Below, piece after piece: positions 10,225 through 63,833 of a stretch of DNA of 64,000 nucleotides. A model generated the notes under the pieces. That model searched no databases, was not told the DNA's origin, and was given only the letters and a program-made list of their open reading frames with translations. Both the position numbers and the translations under genes were made by a program. Source of the DNA: an uncultured Roseobacter sp. (GTDB lineage Bacteria > Pseudomonadota > Alphaproteobacteria > Rhodobacterales > Rhodobacteraceae); the NCBI RefSeq assembly GCF_947499265.1, contig NZ_CANMNK010000010.1, positions 1-64,000 on the forward strand, read 5' to 3'. How positions within the stretch are numbered: the stretch's first letter is position 1; every line of letters starts with the position of its first letter.

Positions 10225-11162
10225 GCCGCGTCCTTCCAGTTCAGAATCATTTTCAGGCAGGCCGGATCAGAGAAGGCCTGCGCGTAGGCCGCCGGGGCCT
10301 CCGAGGCAGGAGAGGTATGGGTGATCAGCCCGTCCAGGCTGAGCGTGCCACTCTCCACCAGAGCGCGGGTCGCCGCGAGATCTTCGCGCGTCCATTCCGC
10401 GGCAACGCGGAACCGCGCCTCTTTCATGAAGGCGGGCGGAAAGGCGAAGCTGATCGGGGTCGTGTAGAAACCGGCCAGCACGATCTCGCCGCCCTTGCCG
10501 ATACGTCCGACCAGATCATTCAACACCTCGACACTGCCGGAAGCGTCATAGATCGACATGTAGTCGCGCCGCGCGTCCTCCTCGGGGGACATCACCGTGT
10601 ATCCTTGTGCGCCATCCCGGCGGGTCGGATCGATTTCCCAGACCGTGGGGGCGGGTGCGCCGGCGGCAATTGTCAGCCGCGCCAGCAGGCGCCCCAAGAC
10701 GCCGTGACCGACGATGAGGTCTGGCATGCATTTGTTCAGACCGGCCATCGTGTGGCGCGCGGTTGCGGCCAGCGCCAGCAAGGCACCCTGCGCACCGAGG
10801 CCCGCATCGATTCGCGTGACCCGGTCCGGGGCTGTCACAACCCGGGAAGCCGCGCCGCCAAACAGTCCAAACGCGCCATCATAGCAATTCGCCCCGGGAA
10901 CAAAGACATGATCGCCCGGGCGATAGCCTGATGTGGGTGCCGCTTCGATCACTTCGCCCACGGCTTCATAGCCGGGCACCAGCGGATATCCCATGCCGGG
11001 GAAGGGTGGCATTTCACCGGACCAGAAGAGTTTTTCGGTGCCCGTGGAAATCCCGGAATGCTGAATGTCGACCACCAGATCATCCGGCCCCGGCGCTGTC
11101 AGCGTGAGGCAATCTACGTCCAGATCACGCGGACCTTTCAGAAGAACTGCGGTGGTATCCAA
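10221..11162 (-). CDS. bchC: 3-hydroxyethyl bacteriochlorophyllide a dehydrogenase
   Basis: BchC oxidises the 3-hydroxyethyl group to acetyl, a late step towards bacteriochlorophyllide a. The product is 313 residues of the zinc-type alcohol dehydrogenase/MDR superfamily, with [36 protein letters not shown] and a [11 protein letters not shown] nucleotide-binding region. I use the TTG start at 11162: it has AGGAG 6 nt upstream and gives the expected [12 protein letters not shown]-terminus. Three PpsR boxes lie directly upstream (11199-11276), so this is the first gene after a strong redox-controlled promoter region. Confidence 0.94.
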
Positions 11163-11198
11163 GTCTCTCTCCTCACCTGCGCTGCGGACCCCGATCAG

Positions 11199-11216
11199 TG
11201 TCAGAGACTCATTACA
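11199..11216. promoter_or_regulatory. PpsR box 1 upstream of bchC
   Basis: TGTCAGAGACTCATTACA fits TGT-N12-ACA. It lies 37 bp upstream of the bchC start codon and is the closest of three boxes. Confidence 0.75.
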
Positions 11217-11232
11217 CAGACTGTTATCTCTC

Positions 11233-11250
11233 TGTCAGTTTAAGCTGACA
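11233..11250. promoter_or_regulatory. PpsR box 2 upstream of bchC
   Basis: TGTCAGTTTAAGCTGACA is a nearly perfect palindrome of the TGTC-N10-GACA type and the best match in the window. It is centred 42.5 bp from box 3 neighbours on each side on average, close enough for cooperative binding. Confidence 0.85.
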
Positions 11251-11258
11251 TATTTTTG

Positions 11259-11276
11259 TGTCAACTAGATTAGACA
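11259..11276. promoter_or_regulatory. PpsR box 3 upstream of bchC
   Basis: TGTCAACTAGATTAGACA fits TGTC-N10-GACA. It lies in the crtF-bchC gap, 8 bp after box 2, so the pair may bind a PpsR tetramer side by side. Confidence 0.85.
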
Positions 11277-11295
11277 CTTTTTGGAGGTCTGGAGA

Positions 11296-12417
11296 TCAGG
11301 GCTTGCGCGCGGTCAGAACCCGCGTGACGTAATTGCGCGCGGGGGCCGGGCTTTGGATGCCTTCAAACCCAGCCGCCGCGCAGAGATTGCCAATCTCATC
11401 CGCCGACCGCGCGCGACCCGTCTGCATCGCCAGCGTGTAGAAGGCAAAGTAGACATCGCCGGCGGCATCCGGCCTGGCACCGCCGCCCATGGGTTCGGAA
11501 ATGATCAGGCGTCCGCCCTTGGGCAATGCCGCGTAGACCGCGCTCAGCAGACCCGCCACGGTCTCATCCGCGTGATCATAAAGCACACGGATCAGGGAAA
11601 TTGCATCGGCCCCCTCGGGCAGTGCATCATCGCGAAACGAGCCGGGGTGGATCGTCACGCGATCACCCATCCCCGCCGCCGCAAAACGTGCCTGCGCCGA
11701 GGGCGTAACTTGTGGCAAATCAAAAAGGGTCATGCGCAACCCCGGTGTCGCCCGGCCCACCGCCTCCAGAAACGCGCCGGTGCCGCCCCCGATGTCCATC
11801 AGCTGGTGCACATCCTTGAACGAGACTGCGCGCAGCGTATCTTCGGCCACCAACCGCTGGCTCTGCGCCATCAGGTCGGAATAGGTTTCCGCCACACCCG
11901 GATCAATCTCGCCGCGCGCGCCAAACACATAGGGCCAGAATTCAGAGAGTTCGGTCCGCGCCGGTCCGCGCAGCAATCCAACCGGATCAGCCAGATCCGC
12001 ATAAAACGCGCGGTGATGCCGGATCATCGCCTCCAGCCCCGGCACACCCATCAAAGCGGCCCCCTTGCGCGCAAGGCCAAAGCGTCCCAAGCGGTCCCGC
12101 TTGAGGAGTTTCAGCGCCGCCGCCGCCTGCAGCAGGACCTGCATCCGCTCTGCCGGGACATCCGTGGCTCGCTCGAGTGTTTCCGCCGATTGAGGACCGG
12201 CCCGCAGGCGTCGGAAAATGTCGAGCTCGACCAAAGCCATCAGCACCTGGCTCTGCACGAAGCCCTGCACCACATCAAAAAGTGCGGCGCCATCCTTGCG
12301 GGCCTGACCGCGTGTGAGGGGGAATTTGCTGGCCCAGCTTTGGAAACCGGGGCGCGCGACCAACTGGTTCAGCCAGCCACCGCGCCATTTCGACACCTCG
12401 CTGGTGGCGTCAGACAT
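11296..12417 (-). CDS. crtF: Demethylspheroidene O-methyltransferase
   Basis: CrtF methylates the 1-hydroxyl group of demethylspheroidene, giving the methoxy end of spheroidene. The 373-residue protein has an N-terminal dimerisation region and a SAM-binding motif LMDIGGGTGAFLEAV, followed by FDLPQVTP and LIRVLYDHADE, typical of this methyltransferase group. The start is ATG 12417, overlapping the end of crtE by 8 nt (ATGTCTGA). It is downstream of crtE and upstream of bchC in the superoperon. Confidence 0.95.
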   Translation of the reverse strand: MSDATSEVSKWRGGWLNQLVARPGFQSWASKFPLTRGQARKDGAALFDVVQGFVQSQVLMALVELDIFRRLRAGPQSAETLERATDVPAERMQVLLQAAAALKLLKRDRLGRFGLARKGAALMGVPGLEAMIRHHRAFYADLADPVGLLRGPARTELSEFWPYVFGARGEIDPGVAETYSDLMAQSQRLVAEDTLRAVSFKDVHQLMDIGGGTGAFLEAVGRATPGLRMTLFDLPQVTPSAQARFAAAGMGDRVTIHPGSFRDDALPEGADAISLIRVLYDHADETVAGLLSAVYAALPKGGRLIISEPMGGGARPDAAGDVYFAFYTLAMQTGRARSADEIGNLCAAAGFEGIQSPAPARNYVTRVLTARKP

Positions 12418-19699: not shown

Positions 19700-20700
19700 A
19701 GACCCCCTTCCCTTTCTCCGCCATCGTCGGTCAACACGCGATGAAGCAGGCGATGATCCTGACGGCTGTGGACCCCGGCATCGGTGGCGTTCTGGTCTTT
19801 GGCGATCGTGGCACGGGCAAATCCACCGCCGTGCGTGCGCTCGCCGCCCTGCTGCCGCCCATTCGCATGGTTGAAACCTGCCCGGTGAACTCCCCCAAAA
19901 GCACAGAATGCCCCGATTGGGCCGAGTTAGGCTCGAAAAAACTGGTCTCGCGCCCTACCCCGGTGATCGATCTGCCGCTGGGGGCGACCGAAGACCGGGT
20001 TGTGGGCGCTTTGGACATCGAACGCGCGCTGACACGGGGCGAAAAGGCGTTTGAGCCAGGGCTGCTGGCGCGCGCCAACCGCGGCTACCTCTACATCGAT
20101 GAGGTCAACCTGCTGGAAGATCACATCGTAGATCTGCTGCTGGACGTCGCGCAATCCGGGGAAAATGTCGTGGAACGCGAGGGCCTCTCGATCCGGCACC
20201 CGGCGCGTTTTGTGCTGGTCGGTTCTGGCAACCCCGAAGAAGGCGAATTGCGCCCACAACTGCTCGACCGTTTCGGGCTTTCCGTGGAGGTGCGCTCGCC
20301 AAATGACGTGGCCGAGCGGGTCGAGGTGATCAAACGGCGCGATGCGTTCGAGAGCGATCACGCGGCCTTCATGGCGCATTATGAGGCCGAGGATACCAAG
20401 GTGCGGGAGACCATTCTGAAAGCCCGCAAGCGCCTGCCGAAAATCAGCACACCCGCTTCCATTCTGGAAGACTGCGCCACGCTCTGCATTGCGCTCGGCT
20501 CCGACGGATTGCGCGGCGAATTGACCCTGTTGCGCACCGCGCGCGCGCTGGCCGCCTATCAAGGCAAAAGAAAACTCAGCCGGGATCATCTGCGGGAGGT
20601 TGCCCCCTCCGCCCTCTCACACCGCCTGCGCCGGGACCCGCTGGACGAAGCAGGCTCCGGCACCCGCGTGATGCGCACGGTGGCGGAGGTGCTGGGGTGA
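19696..20700 (+). CDS. bchI: Magnesium chelatase subunit I
   Basis: BchI is the AAA+ ATPase subunit of Mg-chelatase, which inserts magnesium into protoporphyrin IX. From ATG 19696 the product is 334 residues. The Walker A motif GDRGTGKS is at residues 36-43 and the Walker B region is GYLYIDEVNLLEDH; SGNPEEGELRPQLLDRFGL carries sensor and arginine-finger residues. The start overlaps the crtA stop (ATGA) and the end overlaps bchD by 4 nt, so the unit is coupled. Confidence 0.97.
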   Translation: MKTPFPFSAIVGQHAMKQAMILTAVDPGIGGVLVFGDRGTGKSTAVRALAALLPPIRMVETCPVNSPKSTECPDWAELGSKKLVSRPTPVIDLPLGATEDRVVGALDIERALTRGEKAFEPGLLARANRGYLYIDEVNLLEDHIVDLLLDVAQSGENVVEREGLSIRHPARFVLVGSGNPEEGELRPQLLDRFGLSVEVRSPNDVAERVEVIKRRDAFESDHAAFMAHYEAEDTKVRETILKARKRLPKISTPASILEDCATLCIALGSDGLRGELTLLRTARALAAYQGKRKLSRDHLREVAPSALSHRLRRDPLDEAGSGTRVMRTVAEVLG

Positions 20701-22349
20701 GCGCACAGACCGACAGCTGGGATCGTGCCGCGCTGTGCATCGCCCTGCTGCGTTTCGCGCCCGGATACCTCGGCGGCAGCATTATCCGAATGCGCGCGAG
20801 CCCTCAGCGGGACGCGGTGATTTCATCCCTCGAACCGCTTCGAATGCGACGCCTCCACCCGACCATATCCGATGAGCAATTGTTTGGCGGGTTGGACCTT
20901 GCCGCGACGCTGAACTCAAGTCAAGTTATTGAAAATAAAGGTATATTTGAGACCTCTTGCTCCGCCGTTCTGGCGATGGCAGAACGATGCCCCTCTGACC
21001 TTGCGGCCAAATTGGCGCATCAGCTGGACCGCGACATCGGCCATTGCATCGTCGCATTGGATGAGGGCGCTGAGCAGGACGAGGCCACGCCCCCTGCCCT
21101 TTCCGAACGCCTTCCCTTTCACATCGCCCCCGAGGGCCGGATACCTGCGGATTGGGCGCCTGTCCCCGCGGGGACATCCACGGTTGATCCCGCAACCGTG
21201 ACCAGCGACCCGGATGATTTGACCGCCTTGACCATCCTCGCCGCGCACTTCGGCATCGACAGCCTACGCGCACCGCTCCTCGCGTTGCGCGTCGCGCGCA
21301 CCCATGCAGCCTTTCACGCCCGCACGATCCTTGCGCGTGACGACCTGGAAACAGCGGCCAGCCTGGTTTTCCCCCACCGGGCGACGCGGGTTCCGCAGGA
21401 AGCTGAAACCGAAAGCACGCCCCCGCCGCCAGAACCGGAAACCGAGACAGACAGCGGTGCACAGGAGTCGCTGGAATTGCCTGACGGTGATATGTTGGTC
21501 GATGCCGTCCGCGCCTTGCTTCCTCCCGACATCTTGGCAGGCCTTGTCCCCGCGGGGACATCGCGCCGAACAGGCGGTGACGGGGCCGGTCAAAAGCGCA
21601 AGGGCAACCGGCGCGGACGGCCCCTGCCCTCGCGTCCCGGACGTCTCGATGGTCGCAGCCGCATTGATCTTGTCGCCACTCTGCGCGCAGCCGCTCCCTG
21701 GCAGCCGATCCGCAGGCAGGCACAGCCCGACACCAGCGGCCTGCTGATCCGACCCGCCGACATTCGCCTCAAGCGCTATCAGGAGCAGTCTGATCGCTTG
21801 CTGATTTTTGCTGTGGACGCCTCGGGCTCCGCCGCCGTGTCGCGCCTGAACGAGGCGAAGGGTGCGGTAGAGCTGCTGCTCGCCGAAGCTTACGCCGCGC
21901 GGGATCACGTGGCGCTGATTTCATTCCGGGGCGCCGAGAGCGAAATCCTGCTGCCACCAACGCGCTCGCTGGTGCAAACCAAGCGGCGTCTGGCCAGCCT
22001 GCCCGGCGGCGGCGGCACGCCCCTTGCGACCGGGCTGCAGCAAGCAGCCCTGCTGGCCACGCAAAGCCAGAGCAAAGGCCTGACGCCAACGATTGTTGTG
22101 TTGACGGACGGACGCGCCAATGTGGCGCTCGACGGCAGCACAGATCGCACCCGCGCCGCCGAAGATGCCGATAAAATGGCGCGCCTGATCCGGTCACAAG
22201 GGTTTCTGACGCTGGTCATCGACATGTCCGCACGGCCACAGGCAAGCCTCAAGACGCTGGCAGGCCATTTTGACGGGCCTTACCTGGCGTTGCCCCGCGC
22301 GGACGCACAGGCCCTCACAGGCGCTGTGAGCGCCGCTCTGAGCGTCTGA
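20697..22349 (+). CDS. bchD: Magnesium chelatase subunit D
   Basis: BchD pairs with the BchI ring and contacts BchH. The 550-residue protein has a degenerate AAA+ N-terminal part without a Walker A, an acidic/proline-rich linker around residues 235-260 and a C-terminal VWA domain with the MIDAS motif DASGS. Two copies of a 16-bp palindrome lie in its coding region at 21161 and 21545, both read as V-P-A-G-T. The first falls before the linker and the second just after it, so they sit in segments that can tolerate change. Confidence 0.96.
   Translation: MSAQTDSWDRAALCIALLRFAPGYLGGSIIRMRASPQRDAVISSLEPLRMRRLHPTISDEQLFGGLDLAATLNSSQVIENKGIFETSCSAVLAMAERCPSDLAAKLAHQLDRDIGHCIVALDEGAEQDEATPPALSERLPFHIAPEGRIPADWAPVPAGTSTVDPATVTSDPDDLTALTILAAHFGIDSLRAPLLALRVARTHAAFHARTILARDDLETAASLVFPHRATRVPQEAETESTPPPPEPETETDSGAQESLELPDGDMLVDAVRALLPPDILAGLVPAGTSRRTGGDGAGQKRKGNRRGRPLPSRPGRLDGRSRIDLVATLRAAAPWQPIRRQAQPDTSGLLIRPADIRLKRYQEQSDRLLIFAVDASGSAAVSRLNEAKGAVELLLAEAYAARDHVALISFRGAESEILLPPTRSLVQTKRRLASLPGGGGTPLATGLQQAALLATQSQSKGLTPTIVVLTDGRANVALDGSTDRTRAAEDADKMARLIRSQGFLTLVIDMSARPQASLKTLAGHFDGPYLALPRADAQALTGAVSAALSV
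21161..21176. repeat. 16-bp palindrome A (putative parS), inside bchD
   Basis: TGTCCCCGCGGGGACA, a perfect 16-bp palindrome, is read in bchD as V-P-A-G-T-S. It is the first of six copies spread over 4.4 kb around parAB. Confidence 0.85.
21545..21560. repeat. 16-bp palindrome B (putative parS), inside bchD
   Basis: A perfect copy of TGTCCCCGCGGGGACA, read in bchD as V-P-A-G-T-S in the same frame as copy A, 384 bp away. Confidence 0.85.
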
Positions 22350-22354
22350 GCGGT

Positions 22355-23218
22355 ATGCGCTGGCCGCCCCCTTCGGATTGGCCCAATGTGGCGCTCTCGC
22401 GGCAAGTGCTGGCAGCCCCACATCGCTGGCACGTACAAGAGACCGGACAGGGCCCGACGCTGCTGCTGCTGCATGGCGCCGGGGGCAGCACGCATTCCTT
22501 TCGGGCGATACTCCCGATCCTTGCCGAAACCCACCACGTCGTTGCGATTGATCTGCCCGGACAGGGCTTTACTCAGCTGGGTGCACGCCATCGTTGCGGG
22601 CTGGATACGATGGCGAAAGACATTGAAACCCTCTGCCAGCGCGAAGGCTGGCACCCTGCGGCCATCGTCGGTCATTCCGCAGGCAGCGCTCTTGCCCTGC
22701 AACTGTCCCAGACAGTGCTGTCCCCGCGGGGACAAGCCCCGCAGATCGTTGGCATCAACCCGGCGCTGGACATGTTCGACGGCATTGCCGGGGTTCTGTT
22801 TCCCGCCATCGCGAAGATGCTGGCGGCCATCCCGTTCAGCGCCACCATCTTCTCGGCCACTTCCGCGACACCGAGCCGAATACAGGCCCTAATAAGGGGT
22901 ACAGGCTCTATTCTCGATCCGGAAGGGCTGGAATTGTATCGACGCCTTGTTGCGGATCGCGACCATGTGGATGCAACGCTTTTGATGATGGCGCAATGGT
23001 CTTTGGAAGAACTGACCCGGGACCTCCCAGAGCTGACCGCCGAAATACTGTTCATCACCGGTGACCAGGACAGCGCCGTACCGCCCAAAGTGGCAAGGGT
23101 CGCTGCTGAGCGCATTCGCAACGCCAAACTCATCGAGATCGCGGGCAAGGGTCATTTGGTCCATGAGGAAATTCCCCAGGAAATCGCAGAGACAATACTG
23201 GATTGCCTAAGCGATTAG
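22355..23218 (+). CDS. bchO: BchO, alpha/beta hydrolase associated with Mg-chelatase
   Basis: BchO is an alpha/beta-hydrolase-fold protein always found behind bchID, assigned as a Mg-chelatase accessory protein; the reaction is not established. The 287-residue product has an oxyanion-region LLLLHGAGGSTHSF, the nucleophile elbow VGHSAGSAL and the late histidine in GKGHLVHEE. It carries one 16-bp palindrome at 22719, here in a different frame (S-P-R-G-Q). Its stop overlaps the parB stop by 4 nt, so the photosynthesis gene and the partition gene meet tail to tail. Confidence 0.93.
   Translation: MRWPPPSDWPNVALSRQVLAAPHRWHVQETGQGPTLLLLHGAGGSTHSFRAILPILAETHHVVAIDLPGQGFTQLGARHRCGLDTMAKDIETLCQREGWHPAAIVGHSAGSALALQLSQTVLSPRGQAPQIVGINPALDMFDGIAGVLFPAIAKMLAAIPFSATIFSATSATPSRIQALIRGTGSILDPEGLELYRRLVADRDHVDATLLMMAQWSLEELTRDLPELTAEILFITGDQDSAVPPKVARVAAERIRNAKLIEIAGKGHLVHEEIPQEIAETILDCLSD
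22719..22734. repeat. 16-bp palindrome C (putative parS), inside bchO
   Basis: A perfect copy of TGTCCCCGCGGGGACA inside bchO. It is read in another codon phase than the bchD copies, which argues that DNA sequence rather than peptide is what is kept. Confidence 0.85.
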
Positions 23219-24273
23219 TCCTTCAACCGATCCAGAAAGGCCCGCGCCGCCGCTTCGAGTTTGCGCGGTTCGATGGCGCCGAAATCATGATCCAGCGTGA
23301 CCTCGAATTTCCCCGCAGACGCCGTGCACTTGGCGACACCTTCGGGCCGGTTCAGCTTGATTGTCGTCCGGGCAGAGGTCTTTGCCGGTGTCGGTTTGCT
23401 TGATTTTGGTTTGGCCTGGCCACCGGTCACGGCGCTGCGCAACAGCGACAGCTCCAGGGCGGCGTCACGCGCGGGTTGACTGTTCAAAACGGCGCGCACC
23501 TGTCCGGCAAAACGCGGGTTTTCCTCCAGCAGCTTCACCAGGCTCAACCCGGTTGCACGCGGGATCGCTTCGGGGAATTTCAGATCAGACCCCAACACGG
23601 TCAAGAGCTGCGCGAAATGCCGGATATAGCTGCGCTTCTGACGTCCGGCGGAGGCATAAAGCGCCTCGATCGCGGCGGCAACGCTCTGACGGCTGCGACT
23701 GGCGTAGGACATCGCCAGCTGCGCCATCTCGGCAAAGGAAATGTCACGCCGCACAAGGTTTTCATCGACCATCCGACGGTAGAGATGATCCAGCTGCGCC
23801 CCCCGGGCCTGCAGCGTCGCCGGGATGTTGGTGAACCGCGCATCCCCGGTTTCCTTGCGCAACTCGCGGAACGCGCTGAGACGCCGAAATCCCTGGATCA
23901 GCTCATAACCGCCTTCGACCTCCTCGACATGGATCGGGTTGGACAGACCCACCGCCTGGATCGAGGCTTTCAACTCGTCCAGATCCGGATCACGGTCCGC
24001 CGCCCGGTCCCGCACCAGCTTGGTCATGCGGATATCATCCAGAGGCACCAGACCCACAATCTGGCCATTCTTTTTCAAGGCGACATATTCATGGGCGAGC
24101 CGGTCGTTTTCTGCTCTGATGTCGGCCTCGGCGGCCTGTCGCGCGCTCAGGGCCTCTGCATTCTCGGTGATCGCCGCCGCCATCGGGCCACGACGAGCAG
24201 GGGCCTCATTTTCTGTCCCCGCGGGGACAGCGTCATCATCAAAGTCGATATCAAAGACGCGCCGTTTGCTCAT
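23215..24273 (-). CDS. parB: ParB-family plasmid partition protein
   Basis: This centromere-binding protein is for plasmid segregation. The 352-residue product has a ParB/Spo0J nuclease-like domain (residues about 65-160, with VGLSNPIHVEEVEGGYELIQGFRRLSAFREL), then an HTH region around SYASRSRQSVAAAIEALYASAGR, and a Lys/Ala-rich stretch before a C-terminal domain. It starts 4 nt inside the parA end (coupled) and holds palindrome D near its 5' end. RepB is an alternative name in RepABC-like systems, but no RepC lies next to it; the initiator here is DnaA-like. Confidence 0.92.
   Translation of the reverse strand: MSKRRVFDIDFDDDAVPAGTENEAPARRGPMAAAITENAEALSARQAAEADIRAENDRLAHEYVALKKNGQIVGLVPLDDIRMTKLVRDRAADRDPDLDELKASIQAVGLSNPIHVEEVEGGYELIQGFRRLSAFRELRKETGDARFTNIPATLQARGAQLDHLYRRMVDENLVRRDISFAEMAQLAMSYASRSRQSVAAAIEALYASAGRQKRSYIRHFAQLLTVLGSDLKFPEAIPRATGLSLVKLLEENPRFAGQVRAVLNSQPARDAALELSLLRSAVTGGQAKPKSSKPTPAKTSARTTIKLNRPEGVAKCTASAGKFEVTLDHDFGAIEPRKLEAAARAFLDRLKD
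24214..24229. repeat. 16-bp palindrome D (putative parS), inside parB
   Basis: A perfect TGTCCCCGCGGGGACA near the parB 5' end, read on the minus strand as V-P-A-G-T-E. Confidence 0.85.
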
Positions 24274-25574
24274 CTCTCATCCTCCAGCTGGTCCCATGCC
24301 GCGCAGAGGTGGGTTCGGAATTCCGCATAGGCCTGATCAAACGACGCGCGGGCGCGGCGCCAGGTTTCACGGGTCATGTCGCGGTAGTCGATCTCGTAAA
24401 TCGAGGACAGGAAGCGCCCCGATTGCTCCACCGCGCGGGTCATCTCGATCGGGTGTTCGGTGACCCTATCGCCGAAAACTTTCAAAAAGGCCTGCTGCAT
24501 CGCGCGGTGCAGGTCGTTGTTGGGTTCAAACCGGGTCAACAGGAACCGCAGATCCAGAAAGGCCTTGGGCAGGTTCATTGTCCCCGCGGGGACAAGCCCG
24601 TTGAAGCGACTGAGATCTTCCAGGGCCTCAGACAGCTGCCCGATGAAGGAGGTGGTGGAATCATATTCCCAATAGCCCGGACCGGAGGGGATATAGAGCA
24701 TGTCAGCGGCAAAGACCGCGTTCATGGATTGATACCCGATGGCGGGGGGGCAATCGAACAGGATCAGGTCATAGGCATCGGCTGGCAGCTGATCAAGGAA
24801 CCGCGACACTGCGGCAAAGAACGACCATTCCGGGTTGAGGTGCCGGTACTGGGCGGAGGCAAACTCCACAAAAGCGGCATTGGCACAGGACGGTACGATA
24901 TCGATGGTCGGCCAGTTGGTGGGTTTGATGAAGTCAGCGGCGCGCAGATCGGCAAGCCCCATGTCGGTTATCGAGGCGGGCAGCCGCCGCTGGGGCAGGG
25001 AGGTGCCGCTTTCAGCCCCCTGCGACGCGCGATTCATCCGCTCGGTTTCGGCGGCCAGATCGCGGGCCATGATCCCCCAGACGGTGTATTCTTCGGCCAC
25101 ATCGCTGAGGCCCATGGAATGGCTGAGCGTGGCCTGCGGGTCAAAATCAACGCAAAGCACGCGGTAGCCATCGAGGGCGGCGGCATGGGCGAAGTGCAGC
25201 GCGACGGTGGATTTGCCGGCACCGCCTTTGAAATTCGCAATCGCCGCGCGCATCGCCCGTTTGCCAGCAGGCCGGTAAGGCATCAGCGATCTGCGGTTCA
25301 CCTTGAGCCTGCGGCGCAACTCGTTGATCTCTTCCAGCGCATACCAATGCTGGCGGCCATCGGCCTCGACCGTGCCTTGCGGCAGGGTAGGGTCCGCCGC
25401 CAGGCGACCGCGCATTGTCGATTGGTTCACCTTGAAGATCAGCTCCGCCACTTCCCAGCTGGAAAACCGCCGCAGCGTCTTTTCATTTTGCGGGCTATAG
25501 GTCTGCTGTCGGATGAACCCCTGCATTTTGAGGGATTGCGCCTGCAGCCGTGCCAGATCGGTATGTGTAAACAT
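24270..25574 (-). CDS. parA: ParA-family partition ATPase
   Basis: This Walker-type ATPase moves plasmid copies apart. The 434-residue protein belongs to the long ParA class: an N-terminal DNA-binding region (RRFSSWEVAELIFKVNQSTMRGRL, residues about 35-58) and the deviant P-loop ANFKGGAGKST (113-123), then CVDFDPQATLSHSMG and DLILFDCPPAIGYQ. Long ParAs usually repress their own promoter. Palindrome E is inside the gene and palindrome F lies 20 bp upstream of its start. Confidence 0.94.
   Translation of the reverse strand: MFTHTDLARLQAQSLKMQGFIRQQTYSPQNEKTLRRFSSWEVAELIFKVNQSTMRGRLAADPTLPQGTVEADGRQHWYALEEINELRRRLKVNRRSLMPYRPAGKRAMRAAIANFKGGAGKSTVALHFAHAAALDGYRVLCVDFDPQATLSHSMGLSDVAEEYTVWGIMARDLAAETERMNRASQGAESGTSLPQRRLPASITDMGLADLRAADFIKPTNWPTIDIVPSCANAAFVEFASAQYRHLNPEWSFFAAVSRFLDQLPADAYDLILFDCPPAIGYQSMNAVFAADMLYIPSGPGYWEYDSTTSFIGQLSEALEDLSRFNGLVPAGTMNLPKAFLDLRFLLTRFEPNNDLHRAMQQAFLKVFGDRVTEHPIEMTRAVEQSGRFLSSIYEIDYRDMTRETWRRARASFDQAYAEFRTHLCAAWDQLEDER
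24579..24594. repeat. 16-bp palindrome E (putative parS), inside parA
   Basis: A perfect TGTCCCCGCGGGGACA, read on the minus strand as V-P-A-G-T-M within parA. Confidence 0.85.
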
Positions 25575-25593
25575 GGAATGCCTGTCATGCTCA

Positions 25594-25609
25594 TGTCCCC
25601 GCGGGGACG
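25594..25609. repeat. 16-bp palindrome F (putative parS/operator), upstream of parA
   Basis: TGTCCCCGCGGGGACG differs from the consensus only at the last base. It is the sole copy outside genes and lies 20 bp upstream of the parA start, so it could also act as the parAB operator. Confidence 0.8.
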
Positions 25610-26090
25610 CTAATTCTTGTTTTTTCCAGATTTACGCGGATTTGGTAAAAAAGGCAAAAGAGAATATGCTTGGAATGCAAATATTCGCCAAGGCTGCAGA
25701 TGTTGGAATTTCAAAGGCTTTCGCAGACGATGTACGATTCGCATTCAAAGCTGCGGTACACAGGGCTCCATACGCCAACGGTCTAAATATGGGTGTCATC
25801 TTTTTGCGCGCCACAGCCTATGGGGTGACAAAACAAGGCAATTAGGGGTCATCTAGAATGTCCCCCAATACCATTAAACCTATATTTTCTATTTTGATTT
25901 GGGTTTGATCGGGCGCAATTTCCACTGAAGGCTTGACAGAATCGGGTAATCGGACGCAAATCAGGGTACGTTACTGAAAAGCGGCTGAAACACTGATCCA
26001 AGCCGCCACAAGAGGTTGATCCATCAACCCAACTCCGAGGCAGCGTAACTCTCATCAGACTTACGCATCTATCACATGAGGGCAGGATAT
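25610..26090. other. parA-rep intergenic region, candidate plasmid origin
   Basis: About 480 bp without a convincing gene separate the divergent parA and initiator genes. It is clearly more A+T-rich than its surroundings (for example 25616-25700 and 25860-25910). It holds inverted repeats GCGGCT/AGCCGC (25981-25986 with 26001-26006) and GGTTGAT-CC-ATCAACC (26014-26029). An origin and the two promoters are expected here; no iteron array or clear DnaA box is visible. Confidence 0.5.
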
Positions 26091-26771
26091 ATGCTTTCCA
26101 CGAAACCGGTGGGTCGTGGGGCGTCTGCACGTAAATATGATCTCTTGACCGCGTTGGGGGCATTTGCCCTTGCGCAGGGCAAACACGATCAACGCAGAGC
26201 ACTTCGACTGATGACATTGATTACCGCGCGTTACAATTGGGCGCGTGATGAGCTGGCTGTCGGGCAACGCGAAATCGCGCGCCTGTGGTCGGTGGACGAA
26301 CGCACGGTCAAACGCGAGATGGCGCTTCTGCGATCCAAGGGCTGGCTGGTCGTCAAGCGCCAGGGCGCGCGGGGCAGGGTGACGCAATACGGATTGGGCA
26401 TCGACCGCATTCTGGCCGACAGCGCACCGACATGGGGCTGTGTCGGTTCTGATTTCGAGATTCGGATGGGGCAGGGGGATGCGCCGCCCGCCGTCGTGCC
26501 GCTGCCAGTGCGTGGGACGGTTGCCGCACCGGATGTCTCGACGGGTACGGAATGGGCGCTGGCACAAGCGCTGCTGCATGCGGAGGACGCCGGGACTTAT
26601 GCCAGTTGGATCGCGGCGCTGGAACGCGTTGAAAGGGCAGGGGGGCGGTTGACGCTGCGCGCCCCCTCACGGTTTCATGCGGGCTACGTGCAGTCGCATC
26701 TGGAGCGCCGGGTGCTGGCAGCCTGTCAGGACGTGGATGCGGATGTTGCCGAAGTGCGCATTGTCACGTGA
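26091..26771 (+). CDS. DnaA-like plasmid replication initiator
   Basis: The 226-residue protein has an N-terminal region with a helix-turn-helix (ELAVGQREIARLWSVDERTVKREMALLRSKGWLVV) and a C-terminal part (ALAQALLHAEDAGTYASWIAALERVE...LRAPSRFHAGYVQSHLERRVLAA) that resembles the DnaA N-terminal domain. This is the plan of the DnaA-like replicases of Roseobacter plasmids. I choose ATG 26091 (AGGG/AGGA upstream) over ATG 26076, which lacks a ribosome site. It is divergent from parAB, the usual layout of this replicon class. Confidence 0.85.
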   Translation: MLSTKPVGRGASARKYDLLTALGAFALAQGKHDQRRALRLMTLITARYNWARDELAVGQREIARLWSVDERTVKREMALLRSKGWLVVKRQGARGRVTQYGLGIDRILADSAPTWGCVGSDFEIRMGQGDAPPAVVPLPVRGTVAAPDVSTGTEWALAQALLHAEDAGTYASWIAALERVERAGGRLTLRAPSRFHAGYVQSHLERRVLAACQDVDADVAEVRIVT

Positions 26772-26929
26772 AGAGAGGGCGATATGGCCTCTGCGTCACA
26801 GGTACGTCGCCTATGCCTACTGCCTCGCGGCATCCGCTGGTATCGCATGATCAGAGCACAGTTGATTTACTAAAGCTTGATATATGCGGCGATGATGTGC
26901 ATTTCTGACTGGGAAAGGAGACCGTCGCA

Positions 26930-27103
26930 ATGCCGAAGAACAACAGCGCCACTGTCAAACGCAACGCCAGTGCTGGCAAATTCACCGTCCGCAAGGAAAG
27001 TGGCGACATCTCCGTGCATGCGTCTGGTGAGAAAACGCCAAGGACGGTCAGCTCCTCCATCAGCCGGAACAAGGACGCGCTCAAGCGGTTGGCAAATCGC
27101 TAA
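26930..27103 (+). CDS. Small putative antitoxin upstream of Doc
   Basis: The 57-residue orf MPKNNSATVKRNASAGKFTV to DALKRLANR has a clear AAAGGAG 9 nt before the ATG. It is basic, with a Ser/Thr-rich middle, and I recognise no antitoxin family. Its role is inferred from position: it overlaps or abuts a Fic/Doc-family toxin gene in the same direction, beside plasmid maintenance genes. Confidence 0.6.
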   Translation: MPKNNSATVKRNASAGKFTVRKESGDISVHASGEKTPRTVSSSISRNKDALKRLANR

Positions 27104-27485
27104 GCGGCACTATCGGATCAAGCTCGGTGACGTTCTCGAAGCGCATGAGCAATCGCTGGAAGCTTTTGGCGGTCTGCCCGGCATCTGCAATCTGGACAGC
27201 ATTCTGGGCGCCATTGGTAGGCCATACCACGGCTATCACCACACGATCCATGCCAAGGCTGCGGCATTGCTGCATGGCATCGCGACCTCACACGGGTTCA
27301 ATGACGCCAACAAACGCACCGCCTGGCTGGCGGCAGAGGTTCTGTGTTGGAACAGCGCATACCGCCTGGCCCTGCGCGCCGAGGACCGGATTGACGATGT
27401 GGTTGTCGATGTGGTGACAGGTGCCATGTCGCAGGCCGACCTGGAGAAATGGTTCAAAGCGCGTCTGTCGAGGGAGGGTGCCTAG
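27018..27485 (+). CDS. doc: Doc (death-on-curing) family toxin of a TA pair
   Basis: Doc toxins are Fic-fold kinases that phosphorylate EF-Tu and arrest growth in plasmid-free cells. The recognisable domain starts at RIKLGDVLEAHEQSLEAFGGLPGICNLDSILGA and includes the active-site motif HGFNDANKRTAWLAAEVL (HxFxDANKR). The start is unclear: the nearest in-frame ordinary start is ATG 27018, 84 nt inside the upstream orf in another frame, giving 155 residues; typical Doc is about 125. Translation coupled to the antitoxin is likely. Confidence 0.75.
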   Translation: MRLVRKRQGRSAPPSAGTRTRSSGWQIAKRHYRIKLGDVLEAHEQSLEAFGGLPGICNLDSILGAIGRPYHGYHHTIHAKAAALLHGIATSHGFNDANKRTAWLAAEVLCWNSAYRLALRAEDRIDDVVVDVVTGAMSQADLEKWFKARLSREGA

Positions 27486-62795: not shown

Positions 62796-63833
62796 ATGCA
62801 CATCCCGGCCACCACCCTGACCCAGAGTATTTTCTGTTTTGCCTTTTGCGCCGCCATTGTCTGGTTCTCAGGGGCGCGCCTTGCCTATCTGGTCGATGAT
62901 CTGGCGGACCGCTTCAAAATGGCCAAATCGTTGATGGGGTTGTTGGTGCTGTCACTGGCCACGTCTTTGCCGGAGGTGGCGACGACGTTGAGTGCGGCCA
63001 TACAGCAGTCCAGAGATCTGGTGCTGAACAACCTCTTCGGCGGCATCGCACTACAGACCGCCATTCTGGCCATGTCGGATTTCTGGGCGCGCGGGGCCAT
63101 CACCAATTATCCACGCAAAGCCAATCACGCTTTGGAGGCCACCTTATTGGTGTTCTTGCTCTCCGTGGCCCTGATCATCGTCAATCTGGGCGAGACCTTC
63201 GTGCTGTGGGGCGTCGGGTTGGGCAGCTGTCTGATCGCATTGCTTTATGTTGCGGCGATCTGGCTGTTGCGCCGCTATGACGCCAGCAGCGATTGGGTGC
63301 CGGTGGATTTACCGGATCCCGACCCATTGCCCTTTCCAGCGCCTTCCGGTCTGGCGGAGTCCGGGAATGCTTCCTTGATTTGGCAATCCCTCGCCGCTTG
63401 CGCCGCGATTTTGCTGTTTGGCCTACTGATCGTCGTCTTTGCACAGCGCATTGCGGATCAATCGGGGTTGGGCACCGGGTTTGTGGGCGTCACACTTTTG
63501 GCGGCGGCCACCTCATTGCCAGAGCTGACCACCAGCATCACGGCGGTGCGGATCGGGGCCTATACCATGGCGATTTCAAATATCTTCGGCAGCAATCTGA
63601 TCATGCTGGTACTGGTTTTCCCCGCCGACATTCTGTTCCGCGCGGGTCCGATCCTGCAGGGGACACCACCGATGGTCAGTCTGGCGTTGTCCTTCGGCAT
63701 CGCCGTTACCGCGATCTACCTCATTGGACTGATCGTGCGCCGCAAGCCGAAACTGGGGTTCGTCGGCCTTGATTCAATCCTCGTTCTGCTCACATTTCTA
63801 GCCAGTATGGCCGCCTATTATTATGTGCGCTGA
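62796..63833 (+). CDS. Sodium/calcium exchanger family (CaCA) membrane protein
   Basis: The 345-residue product has about ten helices in two halves, each with an alpha-repeat: LMGLLVLSLATSLPEVATTLSAAI and VGVTLLAAATSLPELTTSITAVRIGAYTMAISNIFGSNLIM. The first repeat partner reads LNNLFGGIALQTAILA instead of the usual GSN, so its ion selectivity may differ. Its last 13 bp overlap a convergent P-type ATPase gene. Confidence 0.9.
   Translation: MHIPATTLTQSIFCFAFCAAIVWFSGARLAYLVDDLADRFKMAKSLMGLLVLSLATSLPEVATTLSAAIQQSRDLVLNNLFGGIALQTAILAMSDFWARGAITNYPRKANHALEATLLVFLLSVALIIVNLGETFVLWGVGLGSCLIALLYVAAIWLLRRYDASSDWVPVDLPDPDPLPFPAPSGLAESGNASLIWQSLAACAAILLFGLLIVVFAQRIADQSGLGTGFVGVTLLAAATSLPELTTSITAVRIGAYTMAISNIFGSNLIMLVLVFPADILFRAGPILQGTPPMVSLALSFGIAVTAIYLIGLIVRRKPKLGFVGLDSILVLLTFLASMAAYYYVR

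Follow-up and report, generated by a model that had tools for sequence, protein, structure and literature searches.

Probable plasmid partition sites inside the photosynthesis genes bchD and bchO of a Roseobacter

The conserved palindromes of DnaA-like plasmid modules were reportedly named likely centromeric anchors by Petersen et al. in 2011. The subject here is an array of one 16-bp palindrome in a stretch of 64,000 nucleotides from an uncultured Roseobacter sp. (contig NZ_CANMNK010000010.1; the whole stretch is called the window), where the copies run from the partition genes parA and parB into the adjoining photosynthesis genes bchD and bchO. With high confidence, and on the strength of sequence comparison, the palindromes are read as the parS sites of the plasmid's own ParABS partition system, and the copies in bchD and bchO as members of the same set that selection keeps in place.

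Sites of this kind inside genes have been described for repABC plasmids: according to PMC9040568, 16-bp parS palindromes lie within cas3, casA and casB near the replication module, and selection has been proposed to act on them even in coding sequence. DnaA-like I modules occupy one fixed central place in photosynthesis clusters carried by plasmids (PMC6052148 and PMC6739100), and the photosynthesis clusters of Rhodobacteraceae are considered to have moved between chromosome and plasmid several times, in directions argued from trees (PMC6052148). In the ParB-parS and Noc-NBS systems of chromosomes, specificity is set by a few residues (PMC7383237). No mention of parS sites or palindromes in bchD or bchO, or of their decay on a chromosome, was found in the literature searched, which did not cover supplements.

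The palindrome array and its linkage to parB

A scan of the window returns five exact copies of TGTCCCCGCGGGGACA and a sixth, TGTCCCCGCGGGGACG, with one mismatch (Table 1), all confined to 21161-25609, about 4.4 kb. The next best match, at 63831, has three mismatches; counted to this limit there are seven matches in the window, and at most three in any of 100 shuffles of it. In the whole assembly of 5.23 Mb and 28 contigs there is no further copy at zero or one mismatch, and the two matches with two mismatches lie on other contigs. When the codons of each gene are shuffled synonymously 2000 times with the protein sequence held fixed, the observed number of exact copies is reached 0 times in bchD, 4 times in bchO, once in parB and 0 times in parA. 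An earlier note on this DNA had listed the same six copies, five perfect and one with a single change, and the scan places them exactly where it had them: five within coding regions (two in bchD, one each in bchO, parB and parA), with VPAGT encoded in bchD, parB and parA and SPRGQ in bchO. That the window holds no other copy was also its claim, and the search of the whole assembly that it proposed extends this claim beyond the window. In other Roseobacter stretches the copy upstream of parA usually has the same base change at the outer end, sometimes with more changes besides, which suggests a second role for this copy, such as that of an operator.

The occurrence of the word in bchD and bchO can be followed across 111 bchD loci, 110 of them from genomes found in family and genus searches and one on the Tateyamaria omphalii plasmid. 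Of 394 genomes in the family search, 164 have a BchD hit, and mostly the highest-scoring of these were fetched; G037 and four lower-ranked loci linked to parB (G025, G116, G139 and G335) were added deliberately, and G142 was skipped. When parB is present on the stretch, 26 of 28 loci carry the word in bchD or bchO, 25 in standard form at zero or one mismatch and one (G105) as a variant. When the DNA fetched, at some loci with flanks of 1.5 kb, contains no parB, the palindrome is found in bchD or bchO at zero or one mismatch in 0 of 83 loci, and three of the 83 match either word at up to three mismatches. The earlier note had reasoned that the same 16-mers in relatives with a chromosomal cluster and without this parAB would speak against a centromere; this comparison comes out in favour of the note's reading, and the 83 loci without the palindrome include the four Roseobacter genomes of this kind. 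Ten of the 83 have a ParB of the same family elsewhere, on another contig or far away, and two of these ten genomes (G001 and G037) share the palindrome class; none of the ten has a site in bchD or bchO, and therefore ParB in trans does not bring sites.

Within Roseobacter, 13 of the 17 genomes with bchD carry the parB, and the other four have no copy at zero or one mismatch in the photosynthesis cluster. On the best tree of BchD and BchO the linkage switches 14 times, with 12 of the switches forced by well-supported branches; from this follows that the photosynthesis cluster moves. Among 12 pairs that are independent on supported branches, linkage and word agree in 10-11, go in opposite directions in 0 and show no difference in 1-2 (p 0.001-0.002). 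The physical tie between plasmid segregation and photosynthesis genes that the earlier note had proposed is accordingly seen on each plasmid, but it is not permanent, as the 14 changes of linkage and the decay in Roseobacter denitrificans (below) show.

The position of palindrome 1 is matched with at most one mismatch in 12 of 12 parB-linked Roseobacter loci compared and with 3-10 in the four chromosomal ones. Palindrome 2 has its position in common with 19 of the 28 parB-linked loci at up to two mismatches, and there the four chromosomal Roseobacter loci have 2, 6, 8 and 8. The alignment column of palindrome 3 has zero or one mismatch in 20 of 28 parB-linked loci, to which G105 is added with its variant. 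In this last genome all four copies, upstream of parA and in parB, bchO and bchD, have changed in concert and read GTTCCCCGCGGGGAAC. One locus (L213, on contig C10 of G397) has the photosynthesis cluster together with parAB, a DnaA-like gene and sites on a contig of 1.07 Mb, which is either a recent integration or a large replicon.

Constraint on plasmids and decay in R. denitrificans

Consider the 48 bases that make up the three bchD and bchO sites of the window. In six plasmid pairs of the Roseobacter litoralis group 0-2 of these bases differ (0-4%), against 27-30% over the remaining sequence of the genes (p 6e-5 to 9e-8). R. litoralis, with the cluster on a plasmid, and R. denitrificans, with the cluster on the chromosome and without such parAB, are sisters in the tree, and between these two 9 of the 48 bases differ (19%), compared with 19% elsewhere (p 0.56). 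The chromosomal bchD and bchO of R. denitrificans still show a degraded word at each of the three positions (3, 2 and 4 mismatches), and have 6 mismatches at a further, third bchD site that R. litoralis and G266 possess; the identity of this genome follows from 6 kb of another of its contigs, which match NC_008387.1 at 100%. In parA, five codons of the site are nearly fixed across 49 plasmids (for example GTC in 48/48 and GGG in 48/49), and in a ranking of 316 codons by synonymous bias they take places 2, 3, 5, 7 and 12 (p 8e-5). The synonymous codons of parA, the constraint between plasmids and the shuffles with fixed protein all bear out the view of the earlier note that the DNA and not the peptide is conserved. 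Selection appears, from these comparisons, to hold the in-gene sites only beside plasmid partition genes.

An alternative is that only the copies in parA and parB form the centromere, while those in bchD and bchO are inherited passengers without function. Many related stretches do show just two to four copies, at parAB, and the adjacent cluster of G116 has none in bchD or bchO. The sites in bchD and bchO nevertheless differ far less between plasmids than the remainder of their genes, and this sparing vanishes between R. litoralis and the chromosomal R. denitrificans. Furthermore, the bchD sites fall into about eight position groups and all three codon phases, and therefore probably arose repeatedly, and the G105 copies, inside and outside the partition genes, all bear the same variant. 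Functionless passengers are thus an unlikely account.

The remnants in R. denitrificans agree with a re-entry of its cluster into the chromosome, which Brinkmann et al. argued from a tree (PMC6052148). Weaker candidates for similar fossils are G394 (5 mismatches in bchO) and G396 (7 in bchO, and 6 with LVAPGT in bchD), while G409 has no clear site remnant. General fossils in chromosomal bchO were set aside as an argument: when closeness to the palindrome is ranked against other positions of the same phase, the homologous bchO position in 80 loci without parB comes out slightly nearer to it, with a mean rank of 0.37 (p 1e-4; the position is a gap in three further loci), but this statistic ignores relatedness, and an older peptide could explain it. 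Under the preferred reading, parS sites within genes would be a physical mark of the movement of the cluster, the degraded words in bchD and bchO of R. denitrificans would be base-level evidence that its cluster came from a plasmid, and the same scan for degraded sites could be applied to every chromosomal cluster.

The presumed reader of the palindrome and the displacement of its sites

The association of the palindrome with parAB can be followed through 108 relatives of parB and the DNA around each, in stretches of 2.7-41 kb. At least two exact copies of the core, or of a variant close to it (GTCCCCGCGGGGAC, TTCCCCGCGGGGAA, TTACCCGCGGGTAA, TTACCCATGGGTAA or TTATCCGCGGATAA), are present in 82 of them; in 24 the support is weaker, one stretch carries a different word and one carries none. 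Many stretches with the palindrome have no bchD, among them plasmid stretches where it lies next to the same parAB. The palindrome classes track the ParB tree with 26 label changes versus 55.7 in shuffles (11 labels, weak ones counted apart), and the site sequence thus varies with ParB lineage, as in ParABS systems. As is usual for parS, the copies gather around parAB and are rare in the remainder of the genome, both for the window and for its relatives; in Tateyamaria they are scattered. The recurrence of the palindrome beside the same parAB in the absence of bchD, together with the way its letters vary with the lineage of ParB, makes a role as parS of a DnaA-like ParAB system very probable. 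Within its class, a copy lies in parB in 18 of 26 loci without bchD, and the 600 bp upstream of parA contain one in 20 of 24 loci with bchD and in 24 of 26 others, all counted with unequal flanks.

A candidate for the specificity of reading is ParB residue 211, an arginine in the window and the first residue of the second helix in the predicted helix-turn-helix. Where the 14-mer core begins with G, the residue is R in 51 of 51 loci; where it begins with T, 54 of 55 loci have another residue. Residue and base thus agree in 105 of 106, and the single exception is G105, the genome with the concerted variant. It could be argued instead that the reader is the N-terminal region of ParA or the DnaA-like protein, and the palindrome an operator or origin element, given that one copy is placed about 20 bp upstream of parA and that ParA columns vary with the palindrome class too. 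Such a reader is very unlikely, because the copies are spread over 4.4 kb within genes and because the word of G105 differs from that of the window though the two ParA proteins are 88% identical, the ParB proteins being 49% identical.

Several observations weigh against parS sites read by ParB and maintained in bchD and bchO. The match between residue 211 and the palindrome base comes down to 2-3 independent changes and is no longer significant once phylogeny is corrected for, and ParA columns are nearly as strongly associated with the palindrome class as those of ParB (0.79 vs 0.87 bits). The deliberately added loci enrich the linked fraction, and some loci were classed as lacking parB from the short flanks mentioned above. 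Two parB-linked loci are without the word in bchD and bchO, G116 and G247, the latter with a parB that is 42% identical and about 15 kb away. The sole testable codon of the parB site is without significant constraint (p 0.12). When R. denitrificans is compared with three other plasmid relatives, 19% of site bases differ against 26-29% elsewhere (p 0.08-0.17), and therefore its loss of constraint is visible only in relation to its sister. Tens of scattered copies in Tateyamaria and in a metagenome-assembled genome (MAG) of Pseudorhodobacter mean, finally, that the word is not always bound to a plasmid.

Where at least 3.5 kb behind parB are available, the position of the outer copies depends on the presence of bchD. 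Stretches without bchD have a copy within 300 bp behind parB in 40 of 51 cases and a distant one, at least 900 bp away, in 5; in stretches with bchD, 4 of 24 have the near copy and 22 a distant one. The end of bchO abuts or overlaps parB in 21 of the 27 loci for which this was measured, and the simplest reading of the sequences is that convergent bchO took the space, and that the outer sites arose by point change in bchO and bchD. The array would then suggest how a centromere adapts when a gene takes its non-coding space.

Point change can be set against insertion of a mobile REP-like palindrome at several places, which would fit the scattered copies in Tateyamaria and the Pseudorhodobacter MAG as well as the many BchO proteins outside Roseobacter that are 3-6 residues shorter at the site. 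There is, however, no length change at the sites of palindrome 2 and of bchO relative to the four chromosomal Roseobacter copies, G081 and G105 have the bchO site in a BchO of the shorter length, the flanks of copies linked to parAB are not complementary beyond one base, and the genome of the window has copies only around parAB. Insertion is in this light highly improbable. The motif of the photosynthesis repressor PpsR/CrtJ is TGT-N12-ACA, and the palindrome, which starts with TGT, ends with ACA and sits in photosynthesis genes, has almost no chance of being its operator, as the spacer is 10 and not 12, no TGT-N12-ACA occurs in 20600-26800, bchD and bchO are without the palindrome in 83 of 83 loci lacking parB, and it is found on plasmid stretches with no photosynthesis genes listed. 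Selection of the peptide VPAGT with the DNA word as by-product is scarcely credible either, for although four of the five in-gene copies of the window encode it, other phases are in use (SPRGQ and CPRGD), synonymous codons in parA are almost fixed, chromosomal Roseobacter copies lose or alter the peptide, and VPAGT is common to three unrelated proteins, BchD, ParB and ParA.

If, then, the palindromes are parS sites, ParB would recognise each of them through its helix-turn-helix, load there as a clamp and subsequently slide onto the adjoining DNA. Characterised ParB proteins use parS as a loading point, from which they slide outward with CTP (PMC7053999 and PMC8367383), and from its fold and arrangement the ParB of the window should behave likewise, with six loading points in 4.4 kb. 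The six sites would build one partition complex, moved by ParA at division, and we infer that the outer sites are needed for it. In related stretches without bchD the sites are found upstream of and within parA, within parB and directly behind it. With the bchO-parB overlap no free DNA remains behind parB in the window, and the outer sites would have evolved inside bchO and bchD at places where VPAGT or SPRGQ is tolerated. Selection would keep the DNA word as long as the cluster adjoins parB, and on the R. denitrificans chromosome, without parB, the word has drifted. It is doubtful, but conceivable, that ParB sliding from the bchO and bchD sites damps or gates bchIDO transcription with ParB dose. 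If this were true, Mg-chelatase output would be coupled to the segregation state of the plasmid, and a cluster leaving the plasmid would escape partition and gating at once and keep decaying parS fossils.

The palindrome forms patterns of other kinds elsewhere. Among 20 Tateyamaria genomes (G411-G414 and G417-G432; loci L386-L420), the 14 with this ParB type have 2-95 exact 16-mers (22-95 in 12 of them), and the six without this ParB type have no copy. G417, which is T. omphalii DOK1-4 by the place of its ParB, has 55 copies, at least 45 of them on contig C1, with a spread along the contig judged by eye, and at least 5 on the photosynthesis plasmid C4. Several scattered copies fall in long reading frames. 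At one locus, L391, whose gene is glmM-like by eye and which was chosen because the site is present, the site has at most one mismatch in eight other genomes of the subclade, with flanks that differ by 12-17%, and G422 and G423, which are copy-rich too, are without it. The Tateyamaria pattern looks like a plasmid ParB that reads the host chromosome in a Noc-like manner, or like tolerated decoys. Pseudorhodobacter PARRP1 (G415) has 67 copies at zero or one mismatch, some in close pairs, and in its fetched loci (L020, L042, L047, L054, L097, L098 and L107) and those of Cypionkella (L060 and L114) 7 of 8 copies are outside reading frames of at least 150 amino acids. The G415 ParB is 44% identical to that of the window and has the same place and score as the G247 ParB; the two are probably one genome. 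On a Leisingera methylohalidivorans plasmid (L190), twelve exact or one-off copies, 55-136 bp apart, occupy 11107-12153 behind parB in DNA without annotated genes, and resemble an intergenic centromere of the same family. In a Dysgonamonadaceae MAG (L038) the 16-mer occurs three times in 350-491, with spacings of 84 and 42 bp, like a repeat array.

Genes around the array and relation to known systems

The genes parA and parB are oriented against bchD and bchO, with a 4-bp overlap between the convergent ends of bchO and parB and a further overlap between parB and parA. The parA product, which matches AAA_31 at 4.9e-24 and CbiA at 4.3e-18, is a ParA ATPase of Walker type, adjacent to parB as in ParABS systems, and is 92-97% identical in 12 other parB-linked Roseobacter stretches. 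For parB, the ParB_N match is 1.1e-5 (25.8 bits vs a cut-off of 26.3) and the profile match to Spo0J (1vz0) 7e-6. Its AlphaFold model finds nucleotide-bound ParB and Noc structures by Foldseek with a best E of 7.5e-8 and TM-scores of just 0.20-0.24 over the whole model, so that the domains match and not their arrangement. Residues G128, R130, R131 and A134 are unchanged in 9 ParBs. The product is thus predicted to have the ParB/CTPase-type N domain and the helix-turn-helix that are typical of ParABS. The DnaA_N match of the replication gene is 2.9e-5 (24.1 bits vs a cut-off of 24.6). As in DnaA-like I modules, this gene is divergent from parAB and lies beyond the stretch upstream of parA; the group number I is taken from literature on relatives (PMC6052148 and PMC6739100). 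The repABC arrangement, with repC behind parAB in one operon, is not found here: bchO abuts parB, and the replicase is DnaA-like and divergent. The earlier note had called bchD and bchO Mg-chelatase genes, a label that fails for bchO, whose product has an alpha/beta hydrolase fold and is not an Mg-chelatase subunit. Beside the replication gene, a reading frame at 26877-27485 (+) is by eye similar to the Fic/Doc family and a possible addiction module.

Table 1. Positions of the palindromes and of the genes around them in the window
Feature	Coordinates	Strand	Remarks
parS-like palindrome 1	21161..21176	.	in bchD, VPAGT; exact
parS-like palindrome 2	21545..21560	.	in bchD, LVPAGT; exact
parS-like palindrome 3	22719..22734	.	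in bchO, LSPRGQ, other codon phase; exact
parS-like palindrome 4	24214..24229	.	in parB, VPAGT; exact
parS-like palindrome 5	24579..24594	.	in parA, LVPAGT; exact
parS-like palindrome 6	25594..25609	.	intergenic, about 20 bp upstream of parA start; one end base changed
bchD, Mg-chelatase subunit D	20697..22349	+	VWA and AAA-lid domains; relatives annotated magnesium chelatase subunit D; palindromes 1 and 2
bchO, alpha/beta hydrolase fold protein	22355..23218	+	Abhydrolase domains; relatives annotated BchO; palindrome 3
parB, DNA-binding partition protein, presumed palindrome reader	23215..24273	-	ParB_N just under cut-off; Foldseek
parA, partition ATPase	24270..25574	-	AAA_31 and CbiA domains
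DnaA-like replication protein	26076..26771	+	DnaA_N just under cut-off; homologues beside same parAB

The order parA, parB, bchO, bchD is the same on plasmids of R. ponti, R. litoralis, Thalassococcus sp. S3 and T. omphalii, and the DnaA-like I plasmids of Rhodobacterales, such as R. litoralis pRLO149_94, share parA, parB and gene order with the window. With the ParB-parS and Noc-NBS systems of chromosomes, the likeness is a palindrome read by a helix-turn-helix of the ParB family (PMC7383237), but the site sequence is different and the system of the window is on a plasmid. The repABC plasmids are alike in having 16-bp palindromes, some of them within genes next to the module (PMC9040568), and the G105 variant fits the repABC consensus GTTNNNNGCNNNNAAC of that work. 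The replicon type of the window is, in contrast, another one, and its sites lie in photosynthesis genes, where linkage, constraint and decay were tested. That parS can lie within genes is therefore already known from repABC plasmids, and what is new here is the remnants on a chromosome and the displacement of the sites.

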